Assembly (NCBI GenBank): GCA_005882115.1
Contig: VBEG01000042.1
Coordinates: forward strand, 1-33,982
Source: Chloroflexota bacterium
GTDB taxonomy: Bacteria > Chloroflexota > Dormibacteria > Dormibacterales > Dormibacteraceae
Length of the DNA: 33,982 nt
Reading direction: 5' to 3'
In this document: positions 1,955 through 2,201 of the stretch, one piece after another
Numbering within the stretch: position 1 is the first letter of the stretch
Layout of the letters: each line of letters begins with the position of its first letter
Made by a program: the position numbers and the translations under genes
Notes under the pieces: generated by a model
Told to the model about the DNA's origin: nothing
The model's input: the letters and a program-made list of their open reading frames with translations, nothing else
The model's database searches: none

Positions 1955-2000
1955 GCCCCTTCAGGGGCAGCTTTGCCTATGGAGTGGGCAAAGATGGAGG
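1955..2000 (+). promoter_or_regulatory. Two tandem hairpins directly before a strong ribosome site
   Basis: Hairpin A pairs GCCCC (1955-1959) with GGGGC (1964-1968) around loop TTCA. Hairpin B pairs CTTTGCC (1971-1977) with GGCAAAG (1987-1993) around a 9-nt loop. Two nucleotides later comes GGAGG (1996-2000), 6 nt before the ATG of the small Arg-rich gene. The loop of hairpin B carries ATGGAG, which is repeated at the ribosome site itself. The arrangement could control translation. I could not match it to a named riboswitch class, so regulation is inferred from position only. Confidence 0.45.
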
Positions 2001-2006
2001 CAGATA

Positions 2007-2201
2007 ATGCGCGGCACGATGGAACGCAGGACCACCGAGCGGCGGTCGGGAGCGGATCGTCGCCGCGCCGAACGGAGGTCTGGTACAGAGCGTCGAGTCG
2101 GTCTAACGCGCAGCGACGCAGTCGATGCCAAAGAGCGCAGAACAGCGCTGCGTCGCAAGGAATATCGCCGCAGTTTGTTTAACCGTCGCGCGGCGACATA
2201 G
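2007..2201 (+). CDS. Small Arg-rich protein with ERRSGxxRR-type repeats
   Basis: 64 residues. The ATG at 2007 has an ideal ribosome site (GGAGG at 1996-2000, 6-nt spacer), which is the best evidence that the gene is real. Residues about 6-31 contain repeated units such as ERRSGADRR and ERRSGTERR. The C-terminal half is again basic (KERR, RRKEYRR, NRR). There is no signal peptide or membrane segment, and the predicted charge is strongly positive, so nucleic-acid or polyanion binding is possible but not shown. It stands alone, with about 590 nt of apparently non-coding DNA downstream. A longer in-frame extension upstream is open but has no coding character. Confidence 0.62.
   Translation: MRGTMERRTTERRSGADRRRAERRSGTERRVGLTRSDAVDAKERRTALRRKEYRRSLFNRRAAT

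Follow-up and report, generated by a model that had tools for sequence, protein, structure and literature searches.

A promoter-like box and hairpin in front of genes for two small proteins, one arginine-rich and one membrane-bound, in Chloroflexi

Two unrelated genes, one for an arginine-rich small protein and the other for a membrane protein of about 75 amino acids, carry the same kind of leader in a Chloroflexi genus and its near relatives: a promoter-like box and then a conserved hairpin. The comparison of these leaders suggests that they are a shared control element for the two proteins. Leader RNAs that are common to unrelated genes indicate a common signal or partner, and the leader described here ties together two unnamed small proteins of uncultured Chloroflexi. 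The second target was found by a covariance model, and co-regulation is now directly testable.

The arginine-rich gene lies in a stretch of 33,982 nucleotides (contig VBEG01000042.1 of assembly GCA_005882115.1), which was analysed at its full length and is referred to below as the window. An earlier note on this DNA had described the gene and two hairpins directly ahead of it. The region that it described begins too late, as the most conserved hairpin, H1, is at 1926-1956; the main leader element, which is common to the second gene, lies just 5' of that region and was missed by the earlier reader. The features of the window are as follows.

1891-1898, + strand: -35-like element GGGTACGA, with GGT at a fixed distance from the box (Arg-family promoters)
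1912-1919, + strand: -10-like box, AGGTTCCC in the window, which deviates from the consensus RCGTTNTC by a G for the usual C (leader comparison)
1926-1956, + strand: H1, 13-bp leader hairpin with the loop CCCGC (1939-1943), the shared element (fold, pair counts, model R3)
1955-1968, + strand: the earlier reader's first hairpin, GCCCC-UUCA-GGGGC, weak (in the closest relatives L002, L007 and L008 only, by eye)
1971-1993, + strand: H2, the earlier reader's second hairpin, conserved in Arg-gene leaders and outside the element common to the membrane gene
1996-2000, + strand: Shine-Dalgarno sequence GGAGG, six nucleotides ahead of the ATG
2007-2201, + strand: gene for the arginine-rich small protein, 64 amino acids (translation, family searches, dN/dS)

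The arginine-rich gene and its family

The 64-codon frame is present as the earlier note had it, with its ATG start and its ribosome site, and it is solitary, in that no second convincing gene was seen between the end of the upstream coding sequence (1435) and the ATG of a hydrolase gene (2793). It encodes a real protein, from a family that is multicopy in one genus of Chloroflexi and its near relatives. Its own genome (3.36 Mb, 147 contigs) holds three clear members, which have different neighbours (ORF lists, read by eye). A search with the single protein gave a match at E <= 0.001 in 14 of 61 genomes, and a profile search, in which about ten weaker places were left unread, gave a match at E <= 1e-4 in 20 of the 110 genomes of the class. 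These 20 are 15 of the 17 genomes of the genus, four others of the family, and G101, which is outside the family. The proteins follow the pattern ERRsxxRRsGxDRRxxERR, a variable middle and then ERRxxLRRxEYRRSLFNRRA, and 13 arginine columns are invariant across 23 aligned sequences. Values of dN/dS ranged from 0.22 to 0.72 and were below 1 in all 56 within-group pairs (a simple count over non-independent pairs, without a neutral control), and over the 19 N-terminal codons of 12 pairs there were 37, 21 and 63 substitutions at codon positions 1, 2 and 3, respectively.

Counts of loci below refer to 31 distinct Arg-family loci with upstream sequence; a 32nd, L056, is a true member that ends at a contig edge and stands outside the count. 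Weak own-genome matches (L004-L006) were left out, as were the repeats L058 and L059 (on the contigs of L009 and L010) and L044, and L018 is absent from alignment A1 because its sequence is incomplete. The repeat L044 belongs to G101 and is 99.6% identical over 2056 nt, at the Arg-family gene, to L018 of the genus genome G003, which reflects either recent transfer or contamination. Five of the 31 frames (L013, L015, L021, L022 and L041) have no start codon (ATG, GTG or TTG) ahead of the conserved core as far back as the preceding stop: at the position of the ATG in relatives such as L010, L015 has TCG and the other four have ACG. The four of these that were tested, with L041 excluded, also have dN/dS below 1. 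Immediately 3' of a gene for a type II/IV secretion ATPase (T2SSE, E 5e-59 and 2e-57, respectively), L046 (about 1490-1695) and L057 (about 1500-1725) have small Arg-Arg-rich ORFs, which possibly form a related subfamily linked to a Tad-like locus.

Known-family searches gave no match in Pfam (four members), NCBIfam (three members) or PHROGs (23 members), and none to PDB sequences for the window protein; with the PHROGs search empty, a phage origin of the family is unsupported. The AlphaFold2 model of the protein is a single helix over residues 2-63, with a mean pLDDT of 75 and the second half better. The earlier note had proposed that the protein binds RNA, DNA or polyphosphate, any of which is compatible with one predicted Arg-rich helix, and RNA binding would also be compatible with the DEAD-box RNA helicase gene (Pfam DEAD, E 4e-48) that lies beside 4 of the 20 Arg-gene regions searched, a set that includes the window, which has none. 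The helicase gene follows on the same strand within 0.2 kb in G010 and G006, is convergent and 0.14 kb away in G005, and lies 2.3 kb downstream in G004.

L178 2031-3287; L179 278-1465; L180 4508-5659; L172 4105-5286: DEAD-box helicase genes in four genus genomes

The window's own genome has two close helicase homologues, on contigs without any of the three Arg-rich genes. This neighbourhood hints at RNA metabolism, and it may be one old arrangement, since all four genomes belong to one genus. Two other features lie upstream of the gene in the window. One is a tRNA-Arg (CCG) at 400-475, 1.5 kb 5' of the Arg-rich gene; a link between the two was rejected, as a tRNA was found at 1 of 22 scanned loci (L014) and no tRNA-Arg at the other scanned loci, with the scan rows L122 and L123 overlapping L002 and L003. 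The other is the adjoining ORF at 620-1435, which has a weak resemblance to Abi_alpha (18.1 bits against a cut-off of 29).

The leader and its second gene

At 13 of the 31 Arg loci the box RCGTTNTC is followed after 5-7 nt by the 13-bp CCCGC-loop hairpin, about 70-110 nt before the ORF, and 8-13 of the 13 pairs form in each of these leaders. H1 is absent at the remaining 18. The box word occurs within 175 nt at 9 of these 18 loci, where about 5 would be expected by chance, and by itself it is weak evidence; three of the hairpin-less loci (L014, L015 and L018) have the box word together with GGT at the right distance. A third subgroup of Arg genes (L017, L021-L027 and L041) has a different upstream motif, roughly CACTTGACTCGAAC...GGGTCACAGTGA, without a hairpin. 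In the window, comparison of fold stability with shuffled sequence gave z -2.48 for H1 (2 of 200 shuffles as stable), z -2.21 for 1920-2009 (5 of 200) and z -1.65 for 1935-2030 (11 of 200), the last of which is unremarkable alone.

Both hairpins that had been noted earlier, GCCCC-UUCA-GGGGC and CUUUGCC...GGCAAAG, appear in the predicted fold, and the ATGGAG of the ribosome site (1994-1999) does recur in the loop of the second (1979-1984). The second is kept in relatives, whereas the first is kept only in the closest of them. Over the 13 Arg leaders the inner 6 bp of H2 are 92% paired, compared with 67% when the arms are reshuffled (0 of 1000 as high), although the arms were positioned by hand, which favours pairing. 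The idea of an expressed gene behind a structured leader was to be given up if neither protein nor hairpins proved conserved; in the relatives compared, the Arg-rich gene and its structured leader are both kept, and so that outcome does not arise.

A covariance model of the 13 Arg-gene leaders (R1), run on 110 genomes, found a second place in 16 of the 17 genus genomes, beyond its 13 training loci. In a separate list of 92 places, 30 had loci; three further R1 places (24 bits) were left out of the locus reading. Among the loci of the second kind that were read, 20 of 21 precede a gene for a membrane protein of about 75 amino acids; L113 does not and is probably a false match. A protein profile of the membrane protein reaches the same genes by a different route, through the protein and not the leader, with a strong match in 25 of the 110 genomes and two weak further matches. 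All 25 strong genes have the box and the hairpin, with 10-13 of 13 pairs, and the distance from the end of the hairpin to the ATG is 9-32 nt in 24 of them and 63 nt in one. Of 38 copies of H1, 37 have CCCGC as their loop. Seven of the 25 genomes that have the membrane gene with H1 (G009, G015, G018, G024, G026, G033 and G106, which are 70-94% complete) show no Arg-family match at E <= 1e-4.

The membrane protein has no match in Pfam, and its structure is modelled as two helices (mean pLDDT 68.5). Weak matches to AmaP (NCBIfam NF033218) were obtained for 4 of 12 members, the best at E 0.015, but with 15.1 bits against a cut-off of 55 the protein is not filed as a member of AmaP. In the window's own genome an ECF sigma factor gene (L120, 340-948) is located about 3.5 kb upstream of the membrane-protein gene.

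Pairing, specificity and the promoter-like boxes

The aligned leaders show covariation in the H1 stem, for the most part between one gene family and the other. Across 30 leaders (28 distinct), 90.4% of the H1 cells are paired and the covariation score is 0.326, compared with 0.169 +/- 0.017 in shuffles (0 of 500 as high) and 0.025-0.095 in slid registers. Six pairs have changed on both sides, which 9 of 500 shuffles match, but much of this double change separates one family from the other and so counts few events. In the Arg leaders alone (n=13), two pairs have changed on both sides, a number reached by 415 of 500 shuffles, and the covariation score is above the shuffles (1 of 500 as high).

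A model built from 15 membrane-gene leaders alone (R3) gave its best score in the window to 1908-1957 (23.5 bits, E 5e-4; runner-up 11.9). Among the 31 loci it recovered, at E <= 0.008, 12 of the 13 Arg leaders, all but L016. Its independence is incomplete, because R1 had picked its training rows. As a control, 29 own-genome loci holding the word GACCCGCTC, from which the own-genome Arg copy L074 was excluded, gave nothing above 13.3 bits. In the 17 genus genomes the joint model R2 found 26 places of at least 35 bits, 16 of them membrane and 10 Arg, and the remaining places were all at 25.1 bits or less. A search for further targets in 301 genomes of the phylum gave matches in 10, all of the family except G126, and the G126 match is taken as false because it sits in a frame that is open through the element. 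What these sequence comparisons establish is that the element is shared, that it pairs, where it lies and that, within the searched genomes, it is confined to the two families.

A -10 role is possible for the box. GGT starts 21-19 nt 5' of it in 13 of the 19 promoters of the Arg family, namely 10 of the 13 that have the hairpin and 3 of the 6 that do not; the other 3-nt windows, taken from -60, have it in 0-2 of 19. The data that drew attention to this spacing are also those on which it was counted. Among the membrane promoters GGT is found at that distance in 6 of 25, against 0-3 in other windows, and TGTTCA occupies this distance in 15 of the 16 from the home genus. It is thus uncertain that a single sigma factor serves both genes, because the membrane promoters are mostly without GGT and nearly all those of the home genus carry TGTTCA instead. 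When the promoter pair was sought with a strict pattern, 17 genomes gave one match, at neither gene, and the search was uninformative. The reading of the two boxes as a promoter is our inference, as are the start site, the sigma factor and a post-transcriptional role for the hairpin. ECF-type sigma factors read promoters in which GGAAC is followed, after about 16-17 nt, by CGTC or CGTT. The two boxes of the leader stand at about that distance and the -10-like one has CGTT, whereas the -35-like part is GGT or TGTTCA and the sigma factor is putative. Ordinary ECF spacing would put the start of transcription at the hairpin's foot.

What the hairpin may do

The explanation that we prefer, and to which we give an even chance, is a two-family regulon whose mRNAs would begin with the conserved hairpin, with a promoter and start site as read from the boxes and a putative trans factor. 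A sigma factor, probably of the ECF type, would read a promoter made of the -35-like GGT and the -10-like RCGTTNTC, and transcription would start at the foot of the 13-bp stem with its almost invariant CCCGC loop; given a start there by the usual spacing, the mRNA would begin with the hairpin. The gene for the membrane protein of about 75 amino acids carries this box and hairpin immediately ahead of its start codon. Once transcription has started, the hairpin would most likely act either as a 5' stabiliser or as a target whose loop a trans-acting protein or RNA recognises, and would in this way co-control both small proteins. Most weight is placed on the shared promoter and the 5' hairpin with a putative trans factor because, as noted, 7 of the 25 genomes with the membrane gene have no Arg-family match.

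Rather unlikely, in our judgement, is that the hairpin is a generic 5' stabiliser with no specific partner. H1 at the inferred 5' end and the many Arg members without it would suit such a role, but plain stability does not require the near-constant loop.

The earlier note had supposed that the leader switches translation on a signal, and in that case H1, H2 and long-range pairs would cover or expose the ribosome site. The Shine-Dalgarno or start region is indeed paired with upstream stretches in the minimum-energy folds of several leaders, and the 3' arm of H1 pairs alternatively with the Shine-Dalgarno region (window centroid; L002). When the 13 Arg leaders were each compared with 100 shuffled leaders, however, 6 to 73 of the shuffles hid the ribosome site equally or better, so that no leader was significant singly; in 10 of the 13, occlusion was a little stronger than the mean of the shuffles (p 0.09 by sign test). 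Start codons were assumed for this count, and L045 was scored 3 nt off its ATG. The occlusion data give no support for a translational switch so far, and a weak effect remains compatible with them. As H2 also lies outside the element common to the membrane gene, we regard a switch as improbable.

An equally improbable reading makes H1 a DNA palindrome for a dimeric transcription factor and not an RNA element. Operators are typically inverted repeats and H1 is close behind the promoter-like pair, yet the outer arms differ by gene family while pairing is kept (native arms form 11.9 of 13 pairs on average, and arms exchanged across the families 9.6), 14 of 28 leaders have CG and 13 have GC at one of the pairs, and the constant part is a loop that is not palindromic. 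That the helix of the Arg-rich protein itself binds H1 and controls both its own gene and the membrane-protein gene is very unlikely: the single predicted Arg-rich helix, the presence of H1 before both genes, the binding of hairpins by arginine-rich peptides such as that of phage lambda N, and the helicase neighbours at 4 of 20 copies all speak for it, but H1 accompanies the membrane gene in the seven genomes without an Arg-family match and is missing at 18 of 31 Arg loci.

Other classes of regulator were also considered. The common element is a single hairpin with a 5-nt loop, whereas a riboswitch pocket needs more than one helix. A terminator or attenuator was rejected, with at least five T within 12 nt found in 1 of 25 membrane leaders and none in the window. 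CsrA was considered because GGA stands in many H2 loops, and its control is unsupported, since CsrA was found in none of 21 genomes, the window's own included, by a search whose control detected it in 3 of 14 known genomes.

To return to the regulon with its 5' hairpin, a wider proposal can be made tentatively: an undescribed Chloroflexi RNA element, the 5' CCCGC hairpin with a putative trans factor, would join the Arg-rich single-helix protein family and the membrane protein; at its boldest, the proposal would make the Arg-rich protein, as a partner in RNA metabolism, the H1-binding regulator of both genes.

The leader resembles the RNA families of Rfam 15 in being a conserved, pairing RNA ahead of genes. 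A known Rfam cis-regulatory RNA was rejected, as no leader match exceeded a curated cut-off: in the window only the tRNA at 400-472 passes, two chance matches at E up to 5 (E 3.9 and 4) are both off the leader, and L101 and L091 have no match up to E 1. Lambda N and boxB are a pair of an arginine-rich peptide and a hairpin. The leader is like them in combining an Arg-rich helix with a short hairpin, with a five-base loop, 5' of its gene; binding here is only proposed, and H1, unlike boxB, is also present where no Arg-rich protein is detected. The ompA mRNA of E. coli has a stabilising stem-loop at its 5' terminus, and H1 is similarly placed at the inferred 5' end of the mRNA; unlike the ompA stem-loop, H1 has a near-invariant loop and is common to two unrelated genes.
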